The translations under genes and the position numbers were made by a program. A model generated the notes under the pieces. That model was not told where the DNA came from. It worked only from the letters and a program-made list of their open reading frames with translations, and did no database searches. DNA of 22,529 nt from a virus: positions 1-22,529 of the IMG/VR virus record IMGVR_UViG_3300006734_000046; one strand, given 5' to 3'. Below, piece after piece: positions 3,378-19,806 of the stretch. Within the stretch, counting starts at the first letter, position 1. Each line of letters begins with the position of its first letter.

Positions 3378-4736
3378 TTATATTTCTTTTACATATAATT
3401 GAGCTCTATTCAAGAATCCTGTAGCAGCAGTTGCATCTGTTTTAAACTTTAATGATACGCTATCACCTGCTGGTAAAGTTCCTCTCCAGAATATAGCAGA
3501 ATTTTTAATCATATTTACTTGAATATTATCTCCAGCAACTCCGCCACCAGCAAGCTCTATAAAAATAACACTCCTACCTCCATAGGTTTCATACTCTACT
3601 GTATCAGCTCCACCAGAAGTAGTTACAATAGCTCCATCAACCCAATCTGAATAAGTATCTGAAGATGTCACATCAGCTTTACCTGAATCAAAACTAGCAT
3701 GTACTTCAATCTCAATATCACTACCTGTTATATTTAAGTACGATAAAGTACCATAACCAGCAGGGAAATGATATGTATTTGGTAAAGTGCTTAATTTTAA
3801 ATCTACAGCACCTGTTGCATTAAGATATTGATTAACTCCTGCTGCTACGGGTGCAGTTTCAACAGTAAATGTTGTTAAACCACCTACGTTAGCAGAAGAT
3901 ACATTAATACCTGTACCAGCAACTACATCATATTCTCTAGCTCTTAGATCACATAATGCTATCCATAGGTTTCTAACTGCATCAGCAATTGTAGCACCTG
4001 TATTGTAAGTAGGGTATGCAGCAACCATACTTGTTCCAGGATTTGCTATTGAACCATCTGTAGTAGCAATACACTGTGCTGCAACAGCTGCTACTAAATC
4101 TGCATTATCACCTAAAGTTGTACTTATAGGACACCATACAGCATTAATAAATTCTTCAAGGATTACATCTATATCTTCAGTAGAACCTGAAATAAGAGAA
4201 CCTATATCACAACCAATTGTAAATTGTGGTAATACAAATACTGGAGGTGGTGCTGTTTCTAAAGCAGTCACCCTACCATCTAAACTAGTAATTGATGCGT
4301 TAATTACTGATAACTCATCGAGTATATCACAAATTTGTTCTCCTAAATATACTGCATAGTCAGTAACTAACATTTGAGTAGTTATACCAAAACACGATGC
4401 TGGTGTAACATATAAGTTTACATCACTAGGTGTGCTTGGTGTATCAGGATTAGCTGGTGTTGTATCACAACATTCACATATTTTTTCAATAAGTGCTTGT
4501 ATTAATTCTTCAAAAGTTTTAGGAGCACATCCATTTAATGTTAAACAAGATAAATCATAGTTATCTACATTTAATGTATCTAATATGGTACAGAACTCTG
4601 TTGCAAGTTTATATACAACGTCTGTTACGGTGTCACCTTTACACAAGCTTAAGCAAGGTATATCAGGTCCATTCCATATCACACAATTTGATGATGTAGG
4701 TGAACAAGGTGAGTTATCTAAATTTACAGGCTTCAT
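3378..4736 (-). CDS. Fibre-like virion protein with repeated Cys-helix modules (452 aa)
   Basis: The first 270 residues are a chain of about five modules, each opened by a cysteine strand and closed by a helix ending in Cys: C18-C49 (CVIWNGPDIPCLSLC, then GDTVTDVVYKLATEFC), C64-C90, C115-C136, C176-C202 and C222-C262. Residues 139-160 (ELSVINASITSLDGRVTALE) are a short coiled coil of the kind found in trimeric fibres. The rest is a Gly/Thr-rich beta domain ending FLNRAQLYVKEI. Layout (helical N-terminal chain, coiled coil, beta tip) fits a trimeric head or tail fibre that contacts the host surface. The next gene uses the same module. No enzyme motif is visible. Confidence 0.72.
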   Translation of the reverse strand: MKPVNLDNSPCSPTSSNCVIWNGPDIPCLSLCKGDTVTDVVYKLATEFCTILDTLNVDNYDLSCLTLNGCAPKTFEELIQALIEKICECCDTTPANPDTPSTPSDVNLYVTPASCFGITTQMLVTDYAVYLGEQICDILDELSVINASITSLDGRVTALETAPPPVFVLPQFTIGCDIGSLISGSTEDIDVILEEFINAVWCPISTTLGDNADLVAAVAAQCIATTDGSIANPGTSMVAAYPTYNTGATIADAVRNLWIALCDLRAREYDVVAGTGINVSSANVGGLTTFTVETAPVAAGVNQYLNATGAVDLKLSTLPNTYHFPAGYGTLSYLNITGSDIEIEVHASFDSGKADVTSSDTYSDWVDGAIVTTSGGADTVEYETYGGRSVIFIELAGGGVAGDNIQVNMIKNSAIFWRGTLPAGDSVSLKFKTDATAATGFLNRAQLYVKEI

Positions 4737-4771
4737 AATATAATATACTAAATTTTATTCATTTTTACTAA

Positions 4772-6610
4772 TTAAGCTTCTGGTTCTGGACATTCTGTAT
4801 AATATATAGTACTACTTATATAACCACATCCTCCACAATTACTACTAGTTTCTGTACATTCATAATCAGGATCATTAAGAACATCTAACATTAGAAGATT
4901 AAAATCAATTTCTCTTTTATAAAGATCTTCCTCATCACAACAATCAGATATTCCATACCTAGATTGTAAAACTTCTTTATATAAAAGCTCTGAATAAGAG
5001 CAAACTATTTTTTCATATTTATCTGCTGAACAAACTGGAGTGTCATATCCAGGTTTTACTTTTCTTGCAGGTTGAGGTATACTAGGACATTCACCACCAG
5101 TACACGTACCTAATTCATATATATTAGTAGCATTAGCATCTGCAAAACCAATCATACAAGTTCTTTCTGATCTTGCACCTGGTTGAACAACTTCTGTAAA
5201 TGCTTCTAGTCCATCACATCCTATATATCTTAAAGCAACTGCTATCTCACTTCCATTAACAGCTGAAGAACAAATACACTTAGGTAAACATTCTTCACAA
5301 GTATCTAAACAATCAGCTATAATTAATGAAAATACAGGAGGAGTTACTTCTGGACATTCATCAGCTTCTGAAACAGTATAACAAAATACTTCATCATCTA
5401 TAACTACTTGTAGAGTCTTACCAACATAATTACCTAGAAGAGTCCCTGAATAAGTAGTTTCTTCTAATGTTAAGCAATCTGTTAATGTATAACATGGTGG
5501 TACTTCAAGTATTCTACAATCTTCACAAGATTGAAAAGTATTAGTTACTGCATATTCTACAACATCTCTATCAGGACATTCAGTTAATTCTAAAGTCCAA
5601 CAGTTATCAAAGTCACCAATAGATGTAGGTACTCTTCCTGGAATAATTATATCACCAGGTTCTATACTTAATGAATTAGTAGCTCCTATTTGACTTGGAT
5701 TAGTAACATTTAAAATAAATGTTAATTCACTGTCAAAACAGTTTGTAGCTAAATAACAAGTGTTTTGACAACTAGGACAATCCTCATATGGTCCATCAGT
5801 TACTGTTACAGATATTGGGTCTATACAATCACCTTCATTAATTTCTACAAAGAAACATTCATCTGAACCATCTATTCTAATGTATTGACCATTATATTCA
5901 AATAAATTAGTAGTTGTAGTTACAACTTGATTTGCAGTTCCACAAGAAGTATTTTGTGCAGCAATAGCATTAAAACTTCCTCCAGTATTTAAAACATAAC
6001 CAAGAGGATCTCCTGGAAACATGCTAATATTATTTGGACAGTCATCTGTATTTTTACTAGTAAACAGTATTGTTCCACCATTTGGTGTTCCTGTTATACT
6101 TGCTATTTCACGTATTTTCCAAACACCTACACCAGCATCTTGTGATAACTCAAAGAAAGCACCTGTAGGACCTCCACCATCTACAAGTTCAAATTGCCAA
6201 AATGGCTGCATGTTAGGAAAACTACCAGTTGCAATTGTTAACTGTGCAGTACCAAAACCAGAAAGATTGTCTATTCTTATATCAATGCAATCACATGTAG
6301 TATTACAACTAGTTAAAGTATAACAACCACATTCATTAGTTGGACATAAAACATTATCACAATCATTGTTATCTGCTACTATATACGCTGTATCTGGATC
6401 ATAAGGTCCTCCTCCTGCAGCTCCACCAAAAGTAGGTTCATTTGGAAATGAAGGTGTTCCAAAACCTAAAGCTAATACTACAGTATAACACAAACCATTG
6501 TATATAACAGTTTGTCCACCGCTATAATTACTTGGATTATCTGCTATGAATTGTAAAGTATCTAATTCTTCACAACAAGGATTAAAATTAATAACGGTAT
6601 ATGCTGCCAT
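4772..6610 (-). CDS. Extremely Cys-rich modular virion protein (612 aa)
   Basis: About 43 of 612 residues are cysteine. Three modules start with CY-(T/L)-L/A-x-x-C: CYTLTSC (96-102), CYLATNC (285-291) and CYTLTDC (373-379). Each later has an aromatic Cys strand (ECFFVEI near 251, CWTLELTEC at 337-345, CYTVSEADEC at 410-419) and a closing CxxC-type pair (CPSC 278-281, CEDC 362-365, CEEC 438-441). A conserved C-terminal part begins RKVKPGYDTPVCSADKYEKI (516-535) and continues with RYGISDCCDEEDLYKRE. I recall this CYxL-module type from other environmental and Bacteroidota phages. It is probably an exposed tail or fibre-hub protein. Cytoplasmic cysteines make metal binding or post-lysis disulphides equally possible. 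Confidence 0.75.
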   Translation of the reverse strand: MAAYTVINFNPCCEELDTLQFIADNPSNYSGGQTVIYNGLCYTVVLALGFGTPSFPNEPTFGGAAGGGPYDPDTAYIVADNNDCDNVLCPTNECGCYTLTSCNTTCDCIDIRIDNLSGFGTAQLTIATGSFPNMQPFWQFELVDGGGPTGAFFELSQDAGVGVWKIREIASITGTPNGGTILFTSKNTDDCPNNISMFPGDPLGYVLNTGGSFNAIAAQNTSCGTANQVVTTTTNLFEYNGQYIRIDGSDECFFVEINEGDCIDPISVTVTDGPYEDCPSCQNTCYLATNCFDSELTFILNVTNPSQIGATNSLSIEPGDIIIPGRVPTSIGDFDNCWTLELTECPDRDVVEYAVTNTFQSCEDCRILEVPPCYTLTDCLTLEETTYSGTLLGNYVGKTLQVVIDDEVFCYTVSEADECPEVTPPVFSLIIADCLDTCEECLPKCICSSAVNGSEIAVALRYIGCDGLEAFTEVVQPGARSERTCMIGFADANATNIYELGTCTGGECPSIPQPARKVKPGYDTPVCSADKYEKIVCSYSELLYKEVLQSRYGISDCCDEEDLYKREIDFNLLMLDVLNDPDYECTETSSNCGGCGYISSTIYYTECPEPEA

Positions 6611-6757: not shown

Positions 6758-7300
6758 TTAACAATTCTTACATTCAAGTTTATTTAAAAGTTTAATAGCA
6801 TAGTTATAAAGACTCATACCTTTTTGTACTTCATGGCATGTTTCTACTTTTGCTACTGCAGCATCTAAATAACTTTTAATTGTTCTGAGTTTATCTAATT
6901 TATCTTTAGTTTTCTTGCTTGGTTCACAATCAGCTAAATCTAAATCACATAAAGCCTTTCTGTATCTATTTAATGCTTTACTTATTCTTAAATGATTATA
7001 CTCTACGTATACTACATCATTAGGAGATACGCTATATTTAATAACATATACTCCGTCAGGTAAAGCTAAATAACTACTATCACAGTTTTCAGTTTGTAAT
7101 TGTAAATCACAAGCTGTTATAACTACATTATCTCCAGGTGTAAAATCTAATTGTATAGAATATCCAAAACCTGGGACAGTTACATTTAAAGTTGGACAAG
7201 TTAAAGGTACTAAGTTAGAATATACACTAGTATCAAGTATTTTCATGATACATGTATTCAATACTGTTGGAACCTCTAAACTTAATACATGATTTGCCAT
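6758..7300 (-). CDS. Conserved small virion-module protein (180 aa)
   Basis: The first 100 residues form a beta-rich domain with strands LNVTVPGFGYSIQLDF, GDNVVITACDLQ and GVYVIKYSVSPNDVVYVEY. A helical Cys-containing C-terminal part (residues 105-180) follows, with RISKALNRYRKALCDLDLADC and ending NKLECKNC. Nine cysteines are present. The N-terminal fold resembles small adaptor or fibre-hub domains, but I do not recognise the family. Its position between the 547-aa virion protein and the Cys-rich 612-aa protein suggests a virion component. The ATG is close behind a strong terminator, which predicts lower expression than the preceding gene. Confidence 0.75.
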   Translation of the reverse strand: MANHVLSLEVPTVLNTCIMKILDTSVYSNLVPLTCPTLNVTVPGFGYSIQLDFTPGDNVVITACDLQLQTENCDSSYLALPDGVYVIKYSVSPNDVVYVEYNHLRISKALNRYRKALCDLDLADCEPSKKTKDKLDKLRTIKSYLDAAVAKVETCHEVQKGMSLYNYAIKLLNKLECKNC

Positions 7301-7373: not shown

Positions 7374-9017
7374 CTATGCTGGTGGTTGAAGTAAATCAAG
7401 TGGAGGAAGTTCTGGGAAAACTAAATCGTTATCACAAACAGCACCACAAGTTAATTCTTCAATCTTACATACTCCACAAGCATCCAACCATGTAGATAAG
7501 TCAGTATATACATCAGCTGCACCTCCTTCAGGAAGAATGATTTCTAGTAAATACTGATCATTATCAAATACTCCAGTTGGGTTATTGAAACGAGGAACAT
7601 TATGTTGTAAGTAAACTCTGTCATAAAGAGCTGCACGATCAATAACTTGTAACTCTTGATCTCCTTGAGTAATCTCACGGATTCTCAAATCTGAGTGGAA
7701 GAAGTTTTGACGGTAAGACTCTGACATAATCAAATCTCTTACAGCTTGTTCACCAAATCCATTAGCTTGACGTGATTCACATTCTGTTTCAACACAGATA
7801 CCACCAAAAGCACAAGGATCTCCATTATAATCTACTTCAGAGATATACAATCTTACTGGCTCTTTTTCAAAGAAGTCAGAAGTTTGGAAAGTACAATCTC
7901 CAAAACGAGTATCAACATAAGCACCTGCAATAATTAAACCTGCACAAGCATCAGCAGTGTGTCCTGCAGATACATAGTTATCCCAAGTATCAAAACCAGC
8001 AGGAAGTTGAGCAGCAGGAGTTGAAGGTGGGTACCAAATAGTACCAGTCTCATCTACTACAAGAATAGAAATAAAAGGACGAATAAGTGGAGAGTTCAAT
8101 AATTGCTCAGCCCAACCTACCATAACTAAAGTAGAATCAACAGCTACTGGAGCAATAGTTTCATCTTCACAACATCCAGTGTAGTAATCTGCTGTATAGT
8201 AAGAGTTACGGTTCAAGAATCTTAATGCTGGAGAACCTTTAACATCTAAACGTAAAGAGTAAGTCTCATCACATAAAAATTCTTTACAACAATCTGCTCC
8301 ACCTGCAGCAGCACTTACTGTAAGTACATCAATAGTAGCATCATTATTTCCTCCAACAATTGTTAAAGTATCTCCAATTGTATAACCTTTACCTGGAGCA
8401 ACAATTGCTACAGCAGTAACTAAACCACCTGCACTAATAGTTGCTTCAACAACAGCACCTGAACCTGTACCACCAGTTACTGTAGTAACCAATGTACCTG
8501 GAGCAGGAGCATATCCTGTACCAGCTACCAAAGTACCTGCATCAAGAGTTGCTAAACCACCACCTGCAGTAAAGTAAGTTGAACCTACGTGTACAATTTG
8601 ATTTTGAGCTGGACAAGCTGGAGAAGCATACAATCTGCTTGCATACCTAGGGTTAATCATTTTAGACTTGTTAGTCTCTTGATACCCTCCGTGGAAAGGT
8701 CCCACTTTGTCATTAGTGTAAATTGTAGATCCTGCAAGGATTACATTACAACAATCAGATGCTCCCGCTAATGTAGCTCCTGTAGTGGAAAGTTGAGTTT
8801 CTGCAACAAACAATCCAATATAACCATTAGTTAGTCTTGAAGAAGCAGCTGCTGAAAGCTGATTCAAAACAACTGTTGGCAAACCTGTACTAGCTAACTG
8901 ACCACCAGAAGCATTAGCTGTGGTAGCAGTTCCATCAGGCAAAACAACGGCAGTACCTGTTTGGTCCTCACCTGTTGCTAAAAACGTTTTTTTAAACGCA
9001 TGATTAAAATAAGCCAT
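7374..9017 (-). CDS. Abundant virion structural protein with inserted GxGY domain (547 aa)
   Basis: The protein has Gly/Thr/Ser-rich beta character and about 17 cysteines, three of them as CC pairs (89-90, 243-244, 282-283). Residues about 165-233 form an insert with two G-x-G-Y motifs (GTGYAPAP and GKGYTIGDTLTI) around a TGGTGSGAVVEATISAGGLV beta segment. This module is widespread in phage virion proteins. The C-terminal half is conserved-looking, with SYRQNFFHSDLRIREITQGD and YDRVYLQHNVPRFNNPTG, and ends in CGVCKIEELTCGAVCDN before a Pro-rich tail. Frequent CGT Arg codons and a strong terminator right after the stop suggest high expression. It could be a main tail, head-decoration or muzzle-type protein; I cannot say which. 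Confidence 0.72.
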   Translation of the reverse strand: MAYFNHAFKKTFLATGEDQTGTAVVLPDGTATTANASGGQLASTGLPTVVLNQLSAAASSRLTNGYIGLFVAETQLSTTGATLAGASDCCNVILAGSTIYTNDKVGPFHGGYQETNKSKMINPRYASRLYASPACPAQNQIVHVGSTYFTAGGGLATLDAGTLVAGTGYAPAPGTLVTTVTGGTGSGAVVEATISAGGLVTAVAIVAPGKGYTIGDTLTIVGGNNDATIDVLTVSAAAGGADCCKEFLCDETYSLRLDVKGSPALRFLNRNSYYTADYYTGCCEDETIAPVAVDSTLVMVGWAEQLLNSPLIRPFISILVVDETGTIWYPPSTPAAQLPAGFDTWDNYVSAGHTADACAGLIIAGAYVDTRFGDCTFQTSDFFEKEPVRLYISEVDYNGDPCAFGGICVETECESRQANGFGEQAVRDLIMSESYRQNFFHSDLRIREITQGDQELQVIDRAALYDRVYLQHNVPRFNNPTGVFDNDQYLLEIILPEGGAADVYTDLSTWLDACGVCKIEELTCGAVCDNDLVFPELPPLDLLQPPA

Positions 9018-9083: not shown

Positions 9084-9539
9084 CTATTTAAGAAATAAAA
9101 GTTTATACTTAGCTTTACTTATTGCATCTTTTATTAAATCCATATTATTTACTATTTCAGAATATGGTACTTTACTTTGTACTAATGTTACTTTTTTGTA
9201 CAACATTCTTAAATAGTTAATTGCATCCTCCACATCTTCCAAAACTTTTGGTTCAACAGGAGAACACTCTAAAATAGTTTCTTCAACACCTTGAAATCCT
9301 TCAACTATTGTGTCAACTAAACCAGGTAATGCATCATATAACTCATTTAAAGCCATATGTGCTGCAAATGCTCCAGGTCCTTTTACTTTTAAATGAAGTA
9401 AATGAAATGAAGTTCTGGCTGCCATTAACTCCGCAGATAAATAAGATACATCAGAAGCTACTGATTCTTTTGGAGTATAACTTGGTGCTGCAGGTCTAGG
9501 CATAGCATCTACTCTTTTTAACATTCTAGATCTTTCCAT
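9084..9539 (-). CDS. Dps/ferritin-like protein (151 aa)
   Basis: A helical protein whose central region matches Dps ferritins. It has LLHLKVKGPGAF, then AAHMALNELYDALPG and LVDTIVEGFQG (residues 47-84). The spacing equals E. coli Dps exactly: H49 and H61 are 12 apart like H51/H63, and D76 and E80 sit 15 and 19 after H61 like D78 and E82. One ligand differs: N65 replaces D67. So four of the five ferroxidase-type residues are kept. Dps proteins form 12-subunit shells that bind DNA and oxidise iron; phage homologues exist but their role is not settled. The Pro-rich N-terminus (residues 10-25) could anchor it to a virion. It lies inside the virion module, between adaptor and 547-aa genes. Met6 is an alternative start. 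Confidence 0.78.
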   Translation of the reverse strand: MERSRMLKRVDAMPRPAAPSYTPKESVASDVSYLSAELMAARTSFHLLHLKVKGPGAFAAHMALNELYDALPGLVDTIVEGFQGVEETILECSPVEPKVLEDVEDAINYLRMLYKKVTLVQSKVPYSEIVNNMDLIKDAISKAKYKLLFLK

Positions 9540-9544
9540 TTTTA

Positions 9545-10246
9545 TTAGTTATTACGTTCAGCAGTTTGTGTACCTCTACCAGATTGGTTTATTGATTCAA
9601 TATCACCAGCTAGTATACTAACAGCTTCATCTATTATTAATTCTATTATATCATCTTTAAATTCAGACTCAACATCAACTGTAGTAGCTGTATTTGTATA
9701 AGGATCTACACAATTAAGTACTTCAATTCTAACAGGTTGACGATAGTAAGTTAAATTAGCTTTATCAATATTAAACTCATTATTAGTATAGATAAATACT
9801 CTATTATTTTTTAAAGTAGCAAAAGTCTCAGCCCAATCAAAACTAGGTCTTTTAGAAACATCTCTAAGTAATTGACTAAGGTTTCCTTCTTCAGCTAAAT
9901 ATACTGTCATAGGTCTTTTTTCTTCACAACAATCATTTGTTGCAAAAGCATCTACTCTTTTCCACTGTAAATAGTTTTCAGGAATAGGTGCAGAAAAAGA
10001 CCTGTCAGCATTTGATAAACTGACAGGTATGGTATTTAAAAGTATTTGTAAGTCATCTTTTCTTCTGGTAGATTGTTCATCACCTTCTTTAACTACATTT
10101 ATACCATGTAGCTGTCTTCGGACCCATTCTACTTGAGCTTTATTAAAAGCCTCAACAATTTGCCAACACTCAAAATTATCATAGTCTTGACTATCTAACT
10201 TATTAAGTCTTTCTTTAACTTTTATGATAATAGTACTATTAAGCAT
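9545..10246 (-). CDS. Head-tail adaptor / neck ring protein candidate (233 aa)
   Basis: Helical N-terminus (residues 4-45, with ECWQIVEAFNKAQVEWVRRQ), then a beta-rich core containing PIPENYLQWKRVDA (87-100), KRPSFDWAETFATL (132-145), RVFIYTN (149-155) and YYRQPVRI (167-174). A final acidic-to-hydrophobic helix, EFKDDIIELIIDEAVSILAG, occupies 195-214. Helix, beta core and C-terminal helix are the layout of P22 gp4/T7 gp11-like adaptor proteins that bind the portal and tail. The placement after the head genes agrees. A CC pair (105-106) is an early sign of the Cys-rich set downstream. The exact ring position in the neck cannot be assigned. Confidence 0.7.
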   Translation of the reverse strand: MLNSTIIIKVKERLNKLDSQDYDNFECWQIVEAFNKAQVEWVRRQLHGINVVKEGDEQSTRRKDDLQILLNTIPVSLSNADRSFSAPIPENYLQWKRVDAFATNDCCEEKRPMTVYLAEEGNLSQLLRDVSKRPSFDWAETFATLKNNRVFIYTNNEFNIDKANLTYYRQPVRIEVLNCVDPYTNTATTVDVESEFKDDIIELIIDEAVSILAGDIESINQSGRGTQTAERNN

Positions 10247-10251
10247 TATTT

Positions 10252-10533
10252 TTATTTATAGTTACCTCTACGTATTTTTCTTGCATACTTCCTTCCACTA
10301 ATTTCCTTGTCTTTTCCTCCAACTTTACCTTTATAGTATGTATTTTCACCATCTGCTGTTTTTACTCTTGTGAGAGTCTTTGCAGGTCCCATACCTCTAT
10401 TTTTAGTGGAAGTAACAGCTTCCTTAACAATAGGAACTGTTACCGTTGTACCTTTTTGAGCTTTAGGTAAGGATTTTTTAACTTTAGCTTTAGTAGCTTT
10501 AGTAGCTTTAGTTGTTTTAGTTGCTTTTTTCAT
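10252..10533 (-). CDS. Lys-rich protein with KAT repeats (93 aa)
   Basis: The N-terminal 25 residues are tandem Lys-Ala-Thr repeats (KKATKTTKATKATKAKVKKS), similar in composition to histone-H1-like tails. The rest is basic with TRVKTADGENTYYKGKVGG and ends GRKYARKIRRGNYK. It could be a nucleoid-type protein packaged with DNA, an idea supported only by charge and by its partner, the adjacent basic 64-aa protein. The leader TAAATAAAAATG precedes the ATG. No cysteine. Confidence 0.75.
   Translation of the reverse strand: MKKATKTTKATKATKAKVKKSLPKAQKGTTVTVPIVKEAVTSTKNRGMGPAKTLTRVKTADGENTYYKGKVGGKDKEISGRKYARKIRRGNYK
10487..10522 (-). repeat. 9-base tandem repeat encoding Lys-Ala-Thr units
   Basis: Four consecutive nine-base units (GCTTTAGTA, GCTTTAGTA, GCTTTAGTT, GTTTTAGTT on the plus strand) encode the KAT-type repeats in the 93-aa basic protein. 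The number of units may vary between relatives by slippage. Confidence 0.75.
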
Positions 10534-10539
10534 TTTTAT

Positions 10540-10734
10540 TTATTTTTTCATTTTACCTAATGTAATAGCAAGTCTAGCTCTTTTAGCTGTTTTACCAGAT
10601 CCTTTAGCTTTTTCTTTTAACCAGGATTTTTTAATAGTTCCATCTGACTTAACAGCTCCTGCTTTCTTAGCAATTGCAGTCAGAGACCCTGGTTTTTTAA
10701 TAGCTCCTTTAATCCAATTTTTTTTAGCTGCCAT
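10540..10734 (-). CDS. Short highly basic protein (64 aa)
   Basis: Lys/Arg-rich small protein with GAIKKPGSLTAIAKKAG at the N-terminus and GSGKTAKRARLAITLGKMKK at the end. GKTAKRARLA-type endings recur in small basic phage proteins next to virion genes, as I recall. There is no cysteine and almost no acidic residue. The start ATG follows TTAAAAA, and the upstream stop is three bases away. The high charge suggests nucleic-acid binding, perhaps packaging with DNA or condensing it, but no experiment is known to me. Confidence 0.75.
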   Translation of the reverse strand: MAAKKNWIKGAIKKPGSLTAIAKKAGAVKSDGTIKKSWLKEKAKGSGKTAKRARLAITLGKMKK

Positions 10735-11819: not shown

Positions 11820-13436
11820 TTAGAATGAACCACCTGTAATTGGGTTTCTCATCACAATTTTCAATACTTTAGTTGGATCTTTAACCCATACTGCAGGCAT
11901 TGTTTGTGACATCATTACTCGGTAACCATTGAATTGTCCAGAAGACTGGAATCCTTGACTACGTCCCATATAGTCCATAGTACCGTTTTGATACCACCAC
12001 TTTAATTGATTATCCCAAGACAATTTCAATAAGAAGATATTGTCATTAGTATTATCAGTGATATCAAAGATAATGAATGAATAAGATGATAATGGGTAAC
12101 CATCAATGATTGGGTTCTCAATATCATTAGTATGAACATTGTCAAATGCTGGGTTCAATACAAACTTAACATTTGCCAAGAATGGAATTACATATGAAGT
12201 ATAAGCAAATCCAAAGTTCAAGTCCATTCCTTTACCTGTAATAGCACCTATATCAGCAGCTTGAATTACAAGACCTGAAGAAACAGCTTCTTGCTTAATA
12301 GCTTCATTTACAAGACGCATACCTGCCATACCTGTTTGTACAATCAATGTACGGTTGGGATCTGGACCTTCAAACTCAACTTTTCCATTGTAGAAGTTGT
12401 AGATTTCTCCACGGAATAAATCTAATGTAAAGTTGTTCTTGTTATATACTCTTTTGTAAGAGTTATCAAGTTGTTTCCAAAGACCTACAGACAATCTAAC
12501 ATCATCTGGTCCATCTTGACGAACTCTACCACCTTGTCCCCACATTAAGTAAGTCTCAATATCTTTAGATATTTTTGTAAGGTGTGCAGCTTCCATTTGA
12601 GTTAAGAAAGTTCTAGAAAGATCTCCGTTATCAAAAGCTTTCTTTACTTTATCTTTACCCATTACTTTAACCATATCCTCTAAAGAAGTAATAGAAGGAT
12701 CAACTGAACGATCAAATGATCTCCAAATTTCAGTTACAGGTACAGTACCGTCAGCATTCATTCCACCTTTGATCATAAGATCAGCACGTGAAGATACTGA
12801 ATAATGTACGTGTGCTTCAGCACCACCTACAAAGTTATAGAACTCACGGAAACCTGCTCCTGTTGTGATATCAGAAAATCTTTCTCCATATTCTCCTCTA
12901 GCAGAACCTTTTCTAAAGAATTTAGTTCCATTAGCTAAGTATCGGTTATCTAGGAAACGAGCATTACCATTATTAACAAGAGTAACAGTATAGATAAATC
13001 CATCACCAATTGGAAGAATGTCTTCATCAGTAATGTAAAGTTCAATACCATTATACTTATCATAAGTAATAATGTCTCCATGACCAAACTCACGCTTGTT
13101 AAGTTTAATACGGAATGAATTTCCATCAACACCTTTAGTTTCATTAGCTGCTTCAATATCCTCAACGATATAAGGAAGATCTTGTGAAACTGGTGTTTGC
13201 CACTTATACTCTCCACGAGCATTGTCTACGTTAATAACATTCTTTCCTCCAAAGTTAGCCATTTGATAAAGAGGCATTTCAACTCTTTGAGCCATAGCCC
13301 AAAGATCTACTGGGCCCATATCCATAGGCTCTGCATCTTTCAACATGTTAACCAAGTGATAAGAATCTACGTGTGAGCTTGCATTGTAAGCCGTATCCCG
13401 TAGAAAGATACCATTGTTTAAAACTGGTGTACTCAT
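11820..13436 (-). CDS. Major capsid protein (538 aa)
   Basis: This is the shell-forming protein, placed after the portal and scaffold genes. It is a long mixed alpha/beta protein. The ending WVKDPTKVLKIVMRNPITGG is, as I recall, typical of crAss-like major capsid proteins, and the HK97 fold is expected for the family. The region GFREFYNFVGGAEAHVHYSV (about 198-217) leads into an inner domain. It contains no cysteine at all, in sharp contrast to the tail and fibre proteins downstream. Arg codons are often CGT here, while many neighbours use AGA, which fits high expression. The start has the AT-rich leader AAATAAATAAAAATG. A strong terminator lies directly after the stop. Identity rests on order, length and C-terminus. 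Confidence 0.88.
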   Translation of the reverse strand: MSTPVLNNGIFLRDTAYNASSHVDSYHLVNMLKDAEPMDMGPVDLWAMAQRVEMPLYQMANFGGKNVINVDNARGEYKWQTPVSQDLPYIVEDIEAANETKGVDGNSFRIKLNKREFGHGDIITYDKYNGIELYITDEDILPIGDGFIYTVTLVNNGNARFLDNRYLANGTKFFRKGSARGEYGERFSDITTGAGFREFYNFVGGAEAHVHYSVSSRADLMIKGGMNADGTVPVTEIWRSFDRSVDPSITSLEDMVKVMGKDKVKKAFDNGDLSRTFLTQMEAAHLTKISKDIETYLMWGQGGRVRQDGPDDVRLSVGLWKQLDNSYKRVYNKNNFTLDLFRGEIYNFYNGKVEFEGPDPNRTLIVQTGMAGMRLVNEAIKQEAVSSGLVIQAADIGAITGKGMDLNFGFAYTSYVIPFLANVKFVLNPAFDNVHTNDIENPIIDGYPLSSYSFIIFDITDNTNDNIFLLKLSWDNQLKWWYQNGTMDYMGRSQGFQSSGQFNGYRVMMSQTMPAVWVKDPTKVLKIVMRNPITGGSF

Positions 13437-14851: not shown

Positions 14852-17602
14852 TTATTTCTTTTTATTATTTTTTGGAGAAACATCATACTTATTTTTATTC
14901 TCTCTAGCTATTTGTAACTGTGTATTTGCTATATCTTTTTGAGCCTGTATCTTTTCTCGTTCAATTTGGTTCTTCTCAGTTTTAATCTGATTATCCATTG
15001 ATTGCTTTTCTCTTTGAACTTGAGTTTGTTGTTGATACTGCTCTGTTTGACGAATTTGATCCATAGCATCTACAAAGTCTGACTGCTTGTTTTCATTTAT
15101 ATCCATCATTGATCCATAACCAGATGCTCTAATTTCAGCAATAAGAATATCTTTTTGTCTATTCTTTTCATTTTCCATAGACTCATGATCAAGTTTCATT
15201 TTCTCTTCTTGTGCTTTTGCTTGAAGTGCTTGTTGTTGCATTTCTTGTTGCTGTTGCATTTCTTGATTTCTTTGCTGTTCTATTTTTTCTTCAGTAGCTT
15301 TCATTACTGTATTTAAATGAGCAAGAGAATCTGATTGAATAATTTTACCAAGATCATATATAGAAGCTCCAGTTGTATTATTTGTTATTGCTAACTGTTT
15401 TAACTGTTCAAGAACTGCTCTATGATTAGCCGTGGTAGAACAAAATATATTAAGATCTCTAAGTAATAAATCAGTACCTTCAATAGCAAAGTTTACTTTT
15501 TCATCTGCAGAAGTAATATATGTTAATCGTGCAGATGGTTTATTACTATGATAATACTGTGCAAGATCTGTTCTCATCTGATGCACTCTAGGCATCAAAT
15601 AATCTGAGTGTTGTATAAAATAAACTTCTGTTTGTGCATATGATGCATTAAGAGCTTGTTCTACTCCTGTTGCTGTTTGTTGACTAATTTGTTGACCCAT
15701 TCTTTGTGGATTAACACCGATAACTTCATATGCTTGTTGCTTAAAGTAATTAGCAAGTTGTATTCTAGACATTAATCTGTTAGTTTGTTCCATGTCTAGT
15801 TTTTGGAAATGCTGGAAGTTTAATGGATTTTCTGTATTAGTTATTGTAGTATCTAAAGGAAGTATTTGGAAATTTTTCATTGCAGCATAAGCTTTTGCAT
15901 AATTTCCTTTACCCCAATCTTCTCCTAATGAATGTTTAGGTAAACCATTTTGATCTAATAAGATAACAGTACCTAATTCATCCACTAATATATCAGCTAT
16001 TTGATTATTTACAATATTATATCCTATTTGAAAAGGTTTCATTAAATCTACAAGAGATGTAGATTTAGTATTTCTATCAGAAAATACTGCACCTTCTACT
16101 GGTATTTTACAACCATATAATGAGTTATCTCCTTTAAATTGAAAACGTAAAGGTCCAATATCTTTCTTATCTATACCTAAATAAATTGGAGAAAAACCAT
16201 CAGGTGAGTTCATTCCCCAGAAGCTAGGTAAATTTGGTCCAAGTTTAATACCACCCCAAACTTCATTAATCCAAATCCAATCAATGTGTTCTCCAAATAC
16301 TAAGTTATCTCTAGTTTTATTTTTAAATAATCTAGTATCATATTGAGGTTTATCAGTAATTTTGTAAGCCTCTGTTACTATTTCAGTAACTATTTCTCCG
16401 TTATCATAAACTTTTGTAAGATGTCCTACTTTTCTTTGTGATTTCCAATAAGCAACAGTTTCTCTAATTAAATAAGCTGTTCCTTCATTTTCATAATCTT
16501 CACTTTCTCTGAGTACATCATTAATAACATCACCACCTTCTAATACACTTTGAGAAGTTGCTGAAGTATATTGTCTCATAGCTAATGAAGGCATATTAGT
16601 ATTCCATTCATGAGATTTAGTAGAGTCATAATAGCTACCATCATTTTGATAACCATTTAAAGTATATCCTGCTGATCTAATTGGATAAATTGCTTCTAAT
16701 GCTTCTAATTGTTCATCAGTCATAAGATAACCATACTTATCTATAGCATCCGCAACTGTAAGCATCTCTGTTTTACCTACCCAGTTTGATTGAGATATAT
16801 ATCTTGCATCAGGAGATTTATGATAGAATACTAGAGTAGGATTCCAAAGTTCTACATCATAGTCATCATCCATCATTCTAAAATGCCAAAACTCTCTATC
16901 AGTTATAAGCATATCTCTAAAACCTCTTTCTTCTAATTCATCCATTCTGAACTTTTCAACATCAACTTTATGTTGGTGATCAGCCCATTGTTCAATCATA
17001 GATCTATAATCCTTTTTAAAGAACTCTTCTATTTCAGGTAAAGTTTTTAGTTTTTCTGGATTTAACTCTTGTTGAAACTCTTCACTATTAGGATCTGCTC
17101 CTTGAGCAACTAAAGCAGAAACTATTTCCATTTGAGCATCAGCTAATAGAACTTCTTCTACCATTGCTCTTTTTTGCTCAAGCATTTCATTATATGAAAA
17201 ATCATCTACTGCCCTATATGTAACTCTACTGTTTCTTTTTGCAAATTCAGAAACTAAAACATTTACAACATTAGGTATAATAGGATAGAATTTTAATTCT
17301 AGTGCTGTGTCATCTTCTTGAGTAAGGTATTCTAGTATATCTCTATATTCTGGATTTTCTTCAACAATGTAATCTCTTTTATCAATTACACCTTTTGCTA
17401 ACTTATAGTTTTTAAGAAGTTTTCTAGCATTTTTTCTAATTTGTTTTATACCATTCCACTCTAACCAATCTAAATTCCAAGCAGCCCACTCTGCATCTTT
17501 TTCTTTAGCGGGCAGAAACTGCAAAGGTTGGATTATAGAACCCATCCTGTTTTCTTTTGTCTTAGCTCCATTTTTGAGCTGCATTGCATTAAGAACTTGC
17601 AT
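14852..17602 (-). CDS. Portal protein (916 aa)
   Basis: A long protein directly after TerL and before the scaffold/capsid pair, as expected for the dodecameric portal that forms the DNA channel. It has an early basic and helical region, a beta-rich mid-part and long helices (about 580-700, including the PQRMGQQISQQTATGVEQAL segment), typical of portal stems and wings. The last 146 residues (771-916) are extremely Gln/Glu/Lys-rich, with heptad-like helical runs such as EMQQQQEMQQQALQAKAQEE. This is likely a coiled coil or an internal barrel/crown. Only two cysteines are present. The first ATG (17602) is preceded by TAAATAAAAATT; Met20 (MGSIIQPL) is an alternative start. No catalytic motif is expected. 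Identity rests on size, order and architecture. Confidence 0.88.
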   Translation of the reverse strand: MQVLNAMQLKNGAKTKENRMGSIIQPLQFLPAKEKDAEWAAWNLDWLEWNGIKQIRKNARKLLKNYKLAKGVIDKRDYIVEENPEYRDILEYLTQEDDTALELKFYPIIPNVVNVLVSEFAKRNSRVTYRAVDDFSYNEMLEQKRAMVEEVLLADAQMEIVSALVAQGADPNSEEFQQELNPEKLKTLPEIEEFFKKDYRSMIEQWADHQHKVDVEKFRMDELEERGFRDMLITDREFWHFRMMDDDYDVELWNPTLVFYHKSPDARYISQSNWVGKTEMLTVADAIDKYGYLMTDEQLEALEAIYPIRSAGYTLNGYQNDGSYYDSTKSHEWNTNMPSLAMRQYTSATSQSVLEGGDVINDVLRESEDYENEGTAYLIRETVAYWKSQRKVGHLTKVYDNGEIVTEIVTEAYKITDKPQYDTRLFKNKTRDNLVFGEHIDWIWINEVWGGIKLGPNLPSFWGMNSPDGFSPIYLGIDKKDIGPLRFQFKGDNSLYGCKIPVEGAVFSDRNTKSTSLVDLMKPFQIGYNIVNNQIADILVDELGTVILLDQNGLPKHSLGEDWGKGNYAKAYAAMKNFQILPLDTTITNTENPLNFQHFQKLDMEQTNRLMSRIQLANYFKQQAYEVIGVNPQRMGQQISQQTATGVEQALNASYAQTEVYFIQHSDYLMPRVHQMRTDLAQYYHSNKPSARLTYITSADEKVNFAIEGTDLLLRDLNIFCSTTANHRAVLEQLKQLAITNNTTGASIYDLGKIIQSDSLAHLNTVMKATEEKIEQQRNQEMQQQQEMQQQALQAKAQEEKMKLDHESMENEKNRQKDILIAEIRASGYGSMMDINENKQSDFVDAMDQIRQTEQYQQQTQVQREKQSMDNQIKTEKNQIEREKIQAQKDIANTQLQIARENKNKYDVSPKNNKKK
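15234..15265 (-). repeat. Short direct repeat in the portal Gln-rich tail
   Basis: A 14-base repeat (TGTTGCATTTCTTG on the plus strand) occurs at 15234-15247 and again at 15252-15265, 18 bases apart. It encodes repeated Q-E-M-Q-Q units in the portal C-terminal tail and is probably the product of in-frame slippage or duplication. Confidence 0.7.
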
Positions 17603-17607
17603 AATTT

Positions 17608-19806
17608 TTATTTAAGATTTTTAAATGCACTTCTAATAACCCTTCCATTAGCTTTTTTACCTTTGCCTAAATTACGAAAAGGGCTATTATATAATTTATA
17701 TAAATTATCTGACTTTTGCAACTTTTTAGCTGCTTCATCTCTCTCTATTCTCTTTTTAAATCCTAAGTTTGAATGTAATATCTTCATATAGGACACTAAA
17801 GCTGCAAATGATACTAAACGGTCAACGTTAACATCATCGTTATAAGCAGCCATTTCAATTAACAACATAGGGTCAGGTATTCTCTCTACACCATACTTTT
17901 TTCTAACAACTGTACCATCTGGTTTAGTTTCTTGATCTATCTCTTCTTTTACATACTCAATAGCATATGAAAGCATATGATCTTTAAACAAACGTCCCGT
18001 GTTTTTCCATCCATATTCTTGGTAAACATTTTTATTTGCTCCTAAATCTTTTAAGAATACCATTTGGTCTTTAGGAACTAGATACATCTGTTTATTTTTA
18101 CTAATCATATATTGGATAAATAATGATATATTGTTTTCTATTATAGTCTTAGCTTTATACCATTCTATTATATGCATTAATTGTTTATGCGTTTTATTAA
18201 TATCATCATATCTACCACACCAAGCTGCAACAATTTTATCTCTTTCTATGTATGTTTCAACTTCTTCACCAGTCATTCTAGTAACTTCAACTGGAGCTTT
18301 CATTACATATATTGAACATAGTGATTCTGAAGTAGTTGTCCTACCTTCACCCACGGGGTCAATAGATGCATAATACATTCCAAACTCAACATCTTTTACA
18401 GGACGTTCCCATACTACAATAGATCCAGTTTTATCTTCTGCTTTTTTACTTACTGGAAATTCTGATATAGGTAATTTATTTGTAACCTCAACATTTAGTT
18501 TACCTGTTGCATCTTCATTTATTTTAACAAACTCATAAGGATATTCTTTTTGTTTTATTCTATCTTGCTGTGCAGAGATAAGATGCATAGGAAACTTTGA
18601 TACTGTCCTTGTATCAAAAGCTTCTTTAATGTTTCTTGGATGCTGAGAGATTCTAAGTTGATATTGTTCAGGTGATAAAGCTTTTTTCCATTCCGCAAAT
18701 TGTTCATCTAAAGCAATTAAAGCTTCTTCTACCTTAGAATTACCATATTCATCAATATAAGGAGGCATAGACCATTGCTCAGGAATAAATAAACCTGATA
18801 AACCTATTGTTCCCTTATCATCAATAAGATTTGTTTCTACTGCATAGATATCATTAGGTATTGGATCTAGCATCATATCTTTTAACGGTTCACATTGTGC
18901 CAAATCACCAACTGATCCTGCAGCAATAAAAACACCAGTAGTTATCATACCTGATTTTAAAGCAGGTCTTATATACTCATATGTCTTATTCATCTTAGGT
19001 GCAATTCCAGCTTCTTCATGAAAGAAGTACTTAACAGGTCCACCTACACCATTTGTTGGATCTTTTTCAAATGACATACCTTGTATAGTACCTTTAAGAC
19101 CTCTATCAAAACTTCTACCACTTACTCTTTCTTCAATCTTTTGTTGCCACATCATAACCTTCATAGGATTAAAAGGTCTATACCATGCCGTGTGTTGATT
19201 TAAAAAGTTAGCGTATTCATCTAAAAATTTCCAAGTACCTTTATCATTTATATAGTCTTTAAGACTTGCACCCATTTTAAGGGTTACTCCTTCTTCAAAC
19301 CATACTTGATTTATAAGCTTAGCACTATGAAAATATGATGAAGCAATCTGACGTTTTTTAAGAATAGCAACATGTTTATAATCTAGTTCTGCCAGTAACT
19401 CATATAAAGCCATATGATACTGTGCATCTCTTATTTTTGCAAAACCAAACTTCTGATTTTCTTTATCAAATATTGGTAAAAAGTTTAACCACATATAATA
19501 GTCTCTAGAAATAAACCATGTTTTATCTCCAGATTTAACTATTATACCTTTTCTACATTTTTCTTTTTCAAAATTCCAATATTCTATAAAATCCTTTGAT
19601 TTAAAAGGAGCATCACAATAGTAACCATTTTGATTAAAAAGTTTACCTTGCTCATTAAAGATTAAAGAGTCTTCATTAAAGTTATATTCTCCAGGTTTAA
19701 AAAATATATTTTTAATAAAAGATTTAAATTCTTCTCTTGATTCAAAAGATGTTTTAGACCACTCACCTTTTTCATATGTGGGTATGTCTATAATAAACTC
19801 TTCCAT
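17608..19806 (-). CDS. terL: Terminase large subunit, TerL (732 aa)
   Basis: This is the packaging motor that pumps DNA through the portal and cuts it. The ATPase half shows a degenerate Walker A region ILKKRQIASSYFHS (148-161), a Walker B strand KYFFHEEAG (259-267) with catalytic E264/E265, and a coupling segment TTGVFIAAGSVGD (289-301). The RNase H-like nuclease half shows D483 in YYASIDPVG, E557 in TIIENN and a last acidic cluster NDDVNVDRLVSF (656-667). This is the usual D...E...D arrangement of TerL nucleases. The size is somewhat larger than classical TerL (about 450-600 aa) and fits crAss-like terminases. The ATG overlaps the upstream stop by one base. The portal start lies only five bases beyond the stop. 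Identity is sure from the ordered motifs and the portal neighbour. Confidence 0.95.
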   Translation of the reverse strand: MEEFIIDIPTYEKGEWSKTSFESREEFKSFIKNIFFKPGEYNFNEDSLIFNEQGKLFNQNGYYCDAPFKSKDFIEYWNFEKEKCRKGIIVKSGDKTWFISRDYYMWLNFLPIFDKENQKFGFAKIRDAQYHMALYELLAELDYKHVAILKKRQIASSYFHSAKLINQVWFEEGVTLKMGASLKDYINDKGTWKFLDEYANFLNQHTAWYRPFNPMKVMMWQQKIEERVSGRSFDRGLKGTIQGMSFEKDPTNGVGGPVKYFFHEEAGIAPKMNKTYEYIRPALKSGMITTGVFIAAGSVGDLAQCEPLKDMMLDPIPNDIYAVETNLIDDKGTIGLSGLFIPEQWSMPPYIDEYGNSKVEEALIALDEQFAEWKKALSPEQYQLRISQHPRNIKEAFDTRTVSKFPMHLISAQQDRIKQKEYPYEFVKINEDATGKLNVEVTNKLPISEFPVSKKAEDKTGSIVVWERPVKDVEFGMYYASIDPVGEGRTTTSESLCSIYVMKAPVEVTRMTGEEVETYIERDKIVAAWCGRYDDINKTHKQLMHIIEWYKAKTIIENNISLFIQYMISKNKQMYLVPKDQMVFLKDLGANKNVYQEYGWKNTGRLFKDHMLSYAIEYVKEEIDQETKPDGTVVRKKYGVERIPDPMLLIEMAAYNDDVNVDRLVSFAALVSYMKILHSNLGFKKRIERDEAAKKLQKSDNLYKLYNSPFRNLGKGKKANGRVIRSAFKNLK

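Follow-up and report, generated by a model that had tools for sequence, protein, structure and literature searches.

A conserved slot directly after the tail-ring gene of crAss-like phages holds the gene of a Dps-like protein. A canonical ferritin stands in place of this gene, in the same slot, in some of these phages, with repeated swaps, and the N-terminus of the Dps-like protein consists of a conserved RxLKR-type peptide followed by a variable linker rich in Pro, Thr and Ser. These three results are new, and an incomplete search of the literature found no report of such an iron-protein slot. The Dps-like protein itself is not new and belongs to a known phage family, DUF5856/phrog_858, which includes T4 rI.-1. 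The window (the whole stretch of DNA that was analysed) is a piece of virus DNA from IMG/VR, 22.5 kb long, that encodes a crassvirus capsid protein, a portal and a terminase, and the features discussed below lie on its minus strand:

6758..7300, minus strand: g180, conserved next neighbour (synteny)
7374..9017, minus strand: g547, conserved downstream neighbour, presumed virion protein (synteny)
9084..9539, minus strand: Dps-like gene (DPSL), 151 aa, DUF5856/phrog_858 (family matches, AF2 model, codon changes)
9300..9395, minus strand: putative metal site H49, H61, (N65), D76, E80 (conservation across 141 sequences)
9402-9404, minus strand: H46, just beyond the putative metal site
9474..9512, minus strand: variable Pro/Ala-rich linker, residues 10-22 (composition)
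9513..9527, minus strand: N-terminal peptide RMLKR, residues 5-9, proposed docking/loading peptide (common to the slot ferritins of sister phages)
9545..10246, minus strand: tail ring protein 3/4 homologue, directly upstream with a 5-nt gap (PF25710, phrog_29507)
11820..13436, minus strand: crassvirus major capsid protein (PF23898, E 4.5e-30)
14852..17602, minus strand: portal protein (phrog_6547, E 7e-93)
17608..19806, minus strand: terminase large subunit (phrog_6681, E 6e-58)

Family, fold and putative metal site

The 151-aa protein matches DUF5856 (PF19174) with 50.5 bits (Pfam curated cut-off 34.6, E 4.6e-13) and phrog_858 over residues 26-149, a full-length PHROG match (E 2.9e-19), and membership of both families holds for all 93 dereplicated relatives. 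T4 rI.-1 is recovered by the family profile with E 2.5e-23, and the aligned members include RB49 rI.-1. When the protein was compared with the PDB by phmmer the best matches were Dps proteins (2d5k, E 0.0013), and the family profile likewise reaches solved Dps proteins (HP-NAP, E 7e-6). The Pfam Ferritin family PF00210 gave no match to the protein at E up to 1 and matched 9 of the 93 relatives at E up to 0.1. Among 84,980 cellular genomes scanned with the protein no relative was found, but such a scan reaches close relatives only and shows little. Between the window and its closest sister contig (L001), codons 66-151 differ by 13 synonymous and 0 amino-acid changes. In all these comparisons the open reading frames were called with a simple longest-ORF script on metagenomic contigs, some of which are near-duplicates of one another; the broad alignments A1 and A4 proved too diverse to serve in pattern searches.

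The sequence-only reading had predicted a Dps/ferritin four-helix fold and had named any other fold as evidence against it. An AlphaFold2 model from the single sequence was poor (pLDDT 64) and the alignment-based model was used: with the 93-relative alignment the monomer is predicted as a four-helix bundle (pLDDT 93.3) with helices at residues 23-51, 57-86, 103-123 and 127-149, which bears the prediction out. The top Foldseek matches of this model in the PDB are Dps proteins, with probability 1.00 and TM up to 0.71 at an E-value of only ~2e-3, and structural alignment to MsDps2 with VIA gives Z 15.9 and an rmsd of 2.2 over 127 residues. Bacterioferritin, YciF-type and other ferritin-like proteins trail MsDps2 narrowly (VIA Z 14-15), and because they score so close behind, the predicted fold is called ferritin-like; within it, the sequence matches point to Dps as the nearest branch. 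The model also aligns to three BFVD entries of uncultured phages annotated 'prohead protease' (A0A6J7WPK9, A0A6J7XDU5 and A0A6J7WIS1), a hint that Dps-like domains may occur fused to head-maturation proteins.

The same reading had placed H49, H61, D76 and E80 in the spacing of E. coli Dps H51, H63, D78 and E82, with N65 replacing D67, and both statements were confirmed (codons 49-80 occupy 9300-9395). When the 151-aa protein is shuffled, the spacing H-12-H-15-D-4-E turns up in 8e-5 of trials. Loss of these residues in homologues would have spoken against the assignment; all four, and Y68 as well, are invariant in 141 of 141 unique relatives, although the search patterns covered the H61 region, and one of them also D76/E80, so that those columns are partly selected. 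H46, kept in 140 of the 141, and H49 were in no search pattern, apart from the close-relative scan. Position 65 is N in 75 relatives, G in 45 and Q in 12 (132 of 141 together) and acidic in only 4; the acid is therefore absent family-wide. Four of the five residues of the Dps inter-subunit ferroxidase set (H51, H63, D67, D78, E82) are thus found, and by its sequence the protein is assigned to the phage Dps-like family, full Dps being ruled out by this five-residue test. In Dps, D67 helps to hold a second, weaker iron. Since it is replaced by N, G or Q, the Dps-like form is likely to hold one metal ion per site or to have unusual chemistry, and a classical di-iron centre is unlikely. A remote relative of the protein in the gut crAss-like phage cr106_1, annotated 'putative DpsA' (L187:21700-22143), lies in a tRNA cluster outside the virion module and retains an acid at the D67 position, as judged by eye in a profile alignment.

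A slot shared by Dps-like genes and ferritins

The neighbours of the gene had been taken for a neck adaptor and a virion protein. The upstream gene proved instead to be a homologue of crAss tail ring protein 3/4: PF25710 is matched with E 0.038 by the window protein and with E 1.4e-5 by the best of its relatives, and phrog_29507 (virion structural protein) with E 5.4e-12. The downstream gene, g547, can still be presumed to encode a virion protein and has only weak matches among the tail and virion families of phages. No solved structure was matched by profiles of the ring protein, of g547 or of g180 (for g180, none in the PDB).

The gene order portal, unknown, capsid, g336, ring, Dps-like, g547, g180 recurs in dozens of contigs of the window's lineage. 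So as to avoid selection by the Dps-like gene, 80 crAss-like loci were fetched with the ring protein alone, and in 65 of them the Dps-like gene follows the ring gene directly, typically 2-11 nt after its stop codon. No copy elsewhere was found in the 15 records that lack it in the slot, though these records are fragments. In 11 of the 80 loci neither a Dps-like gene nor a ferritin is present, hence the Dps-like gene is dispensable and non-essential for tail building.

The remaining 4 of these 15 loci have a ferritin of 205-209 aa in the same slot. These ferritins match PF00210 with 86-92 bits (cut-off 24.5, E ~1e-25), and the best PDB match is a bacterial ferritin (E 5e-25). When viral contigs were scanned with a ferritin query, 25 contigs were found, in 22 of which the ring gene lies directly upstream; four of the ring-ferritin contigs carry both the ferritin and the Dps-like gene. 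A second scan added 9 further contigs with the ring-ferritin order (~30 contigs in all). The six ferroxidase ligands are complete in 25 of 25 ferritins of the first scan. Mapped onto a tree of 102 ring proteins, the ferritin label requires 6 changes, at least 5 of them forced by well-supported branches, which indicates that the exchange between the Dps-like gene and the ferritin happened repeatedly.

The Dps-like gene is also met in other places. A second lineage has it right after the portal, and in a third set of crAss-like contigs (L126, L141, L129, L164) it comes after or near the portal. Among unrelated phages a PHROG tally of the neighbours gives late structural, packaging and endolysin genes; a family member beside or overlapping a lysis gene (rI antiholin, holin) recurs in several of them. 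A general link with lysis was considered and dropped, the neighbour tallies in unrelated phages having no single theme.

Other genes near the slot vary as well. In two contigs (L028:8589-9968 and L069:8547-9920) an unrelated gene of 457-459 aa, glycosyltransferase/Stealth-like by eye, separates the ring gene from the Dps-like gene, from which it follows that the slot can accommodate further genes too. Window positions 10252-10734, which lie between g336 and the ring gene, hold two small Lys/Ala-rich ORFs of 93 and 64 aa on the minus strand, and the equivalent place in sister contigs holds variable basic proteins (217 aa in L002); all of these are perhaps DNA-condensing or internal proteins.

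The N-terminal peptide and its linker

The pattern [RK]-[MLT]-L-[KR]-R occurs within the first ten residues of all 53 unique slot proteins of the ring-selected loci, be they Dps-like or ferritin, and an RxLKR-type peptide is present in 63 of 71 slot proteins as against 1 of 865 other ORFs in the same loci. Slot ferritins usually bear the same kind of N-terminal peptide as the Dps-like proteins, and more distant members have LK(R/K)-type remnants or LKRP forms. The leucine codons of the peptide vary synonymously, which points to selection on the protein. Behind the peptide, the linker of the Dps-like proteins is variable, 12-34 residues long and rich in Pro, Thr, Ser and Ala (P 18%, T 13%, S 12% and A 10% over 49 sequences).

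The Pro-rich N-terminal arm that had been compared with that of Dps looks more like a short conserved peptide plus a linker than like the Lys-rich tail with which Dps binds DNA. That it is less basic than in Dps is not clearly so, given 5 basic and 2 acidic residues among the first 22.

The peptide stays while the domain behind it changes, and this suggests a docking or loading signal. In two long contigs RxLKR was found on the slot protein and nowhere else; the idea of a general virion-targeting signal was dropped on this account, and for the same reason a partner particular to the slot is more likely. A portal-adjacent lineage (L301, approximately 4300-5240) independently offers another shared N-terminal peptide: there a Dps-like gene (134 aa) and a ferritin gene (177 aa) are adjacent and both proteins start with the heptapeptide MALDINK.

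Proposed role and comparison with known systems

The explanation that we favour, at about even chances, is that the Dps-like protein is tethered by its peptide and serves the virion, or the site where it is assembled, as an accessory that sequesters or oxidises iron, most likely as protection against iron-driven oxidation. A Dps-like protein with the ferritin fold, specific to phages, would have retained a putative metal site (H49, H61, D76 and E80, probably with H46); the RxLKR peptide and the flexible linker would tether it to a partner from the same late tail/head operon; once there, it would bind iron and sequester or oxidise it at the virion or assembly site, the most likely purpose being to shield DNA or particle proteins from iron-driven oxidation. 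The choice between iron handling and a structural use of the fold leans to the former because a canonical ferritin replaces the Dps-like gene in the same slot; taken together, the conserved slot, the tag-like peptide and the repeated ferritin replacement speak for iron handling at the virion or assembly site rather than for a purely structural fold.

The support for packaging comes from distant relatives, through published virion mass spectrometry. ORF78 of LIMEstone1, listed as a 'confirmed structural protein', was recovered through 3 unique peptides that cover 28% of it (PMC3296691). In Sajous1, 10 spectra from CsCl-purified virions were assigned to gp217. The authors modelled this protein as a ferritin and suggested that it plays a Ferrojan horse role; infection was unimpaired in tonB/feoB host mutants, and the paper itself warns of contamination at low spectral counts (PMC10892097). 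Both proteins, from Ackermannviridae, match the family HMM built here with E ~5e-30 each, and it is on this similarity that the two studies are linked here to one another and to the crAss-like gene. The modest peptide counts of both studies weigh against the favoured explanation, as do the tonB/feoB result, the lack of the acid at Dps position 67, the 11 of 80 ring loci with neither gene and the family members outside virion modules in other phages (T4 rI.-1 adjoins rI).

Some of these observations would suit a free auxiliary protein of the infected cell, unpackaged, whose late iron storage or peroxide removal protects the host and the replicating phage DNA, the operon merely setting the timing. 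The Dps and Mn-catalase genes of gut phages have been read as oxidative-stress helpers (Benler et al., PMC8008677), the Dps-like gene is dispensable, T4-like and jumbo phages have members of the family elsewhere than in virion modules, and the gut crAss-like relative annotated DpsA sits in a tRNA cluster. We nevertheless consider this rather unlikely in view of the conserved slot between the ring gene and g547, the slot-specific N-terminal peptide common to the ferritin and the two relatives reported from purified virions. It is well established that Dps proteins contact and bind DNA through basic tails, and the near-invariant basic RxLKR peptide might in the same way act on DNA at the portal or tail, binding or condensing it, with iron of secondary importance; this is improbable, as the peptide has just ~5 residues and is followed by a neutral linker, the protein body has a net charge of -4 (14 basic, 18 acidic) and the Ackermannviridae members lack the arm.

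There is very little probability that the fold is a purely structural piece of the neck or tail with fossil ligands: its position in the tail-ring module and the loss of the D67 equivalent would agree with this, but even very divergent phages keep the ligand-like residues unchanged, some ring loci have lost the gene, and its replacement is a ferritin that is catalytically complete, with six ligands. Even slighter is the chance that the protein times lysis or acts as a regulator, which the database name and the position of T4 rI.-1 might suggest. It is true that rI.-1 overlaps the antiholin gene rI (T4, L186:1320-1996), that a family member adjoins the holin in P19250A (L008:5929-6770) and that there are several endolysin neighbours; however, no lysis gene was recognised beside the gene in crAss-like loci, and Pfam and PHROG profile scans found no DNA-binding regulator domain in the protein. 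The name 'starvation-inducible transcriptional regulator', used in PHROG and RefSeq, probably derives from Dps similarity and is probably misleading for T4 rI.-1 homologues.

Returning to the tethered iron-handling accessory, a bolder form of it, to which we give somewhat less than even chances, is that environmental crAss-like phages have a dedicated slot in their tail-ring operon in which a short N-terminal peptide, evolving independently of the domain behind it, directs either a Dps-like protein or a true ferritin into the particle or onto its surface, and the virion thereby handles iron. If this is true, the virion itself carries, sequesters or oxidises iron in a large group of environmental crAss-like phages, which belong to an abundant phage order. 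RxLKR is in addition a candidate for a peptide that loads cargo in phages. The suspicion that phage particles contain iron is an old one (the Ferrojan horse idea), and for most phages we know of no clear conserved iron-binding virion protein. The converging lines here are the invariant ligands, the fixed place in the tail module, the ferritin swaps behind a similar peptide and the detection of relatives in virions.

Within DUF5856/phrog_858, T4 and RB49 rI.-1 included, the homology is full-length, with the same H-x2-H, H, Y, D, E signature and a C-terminal YKLxxL; unlike other members, the crAss-like gene sits in the virion module and has an added N-terminal peptide and linker. LIMEstone1 ORF78 and Sajous1 gp217 belong to the same family and were detected in virions (PMC3296691, PMC10892097), whereas they are 117 aa long, lack the N-terminal arm and have another gene context. 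The miniferritins Dps and NapA of bacteria have the four-helix fold, the H51/H63/D78/E82 spacing and the HxxH of Gram-positive type in common with the window protein, which differs in having no acid at position 67 and no Pfam Ferritin match. Bacterial non-heme ferritin (Ftn), from another branch of the ferritin superfamily and with a complete di-iron centre, fills the same slot in sister phages behind a similar N-terminal peptide. A further likeness is offered by encapsulin cargo, in which ferritin-like proteins are joined through a flexible linker to a short loading peptide that binds the encapsulin shell. The slot proteins may be regarded as analogous in that they too combine a short peptide, a flexible linker and a ferritin-like domain, with the difference that the encapsulin cargo peptide is usually C-terminal and theirs is N-terminal.
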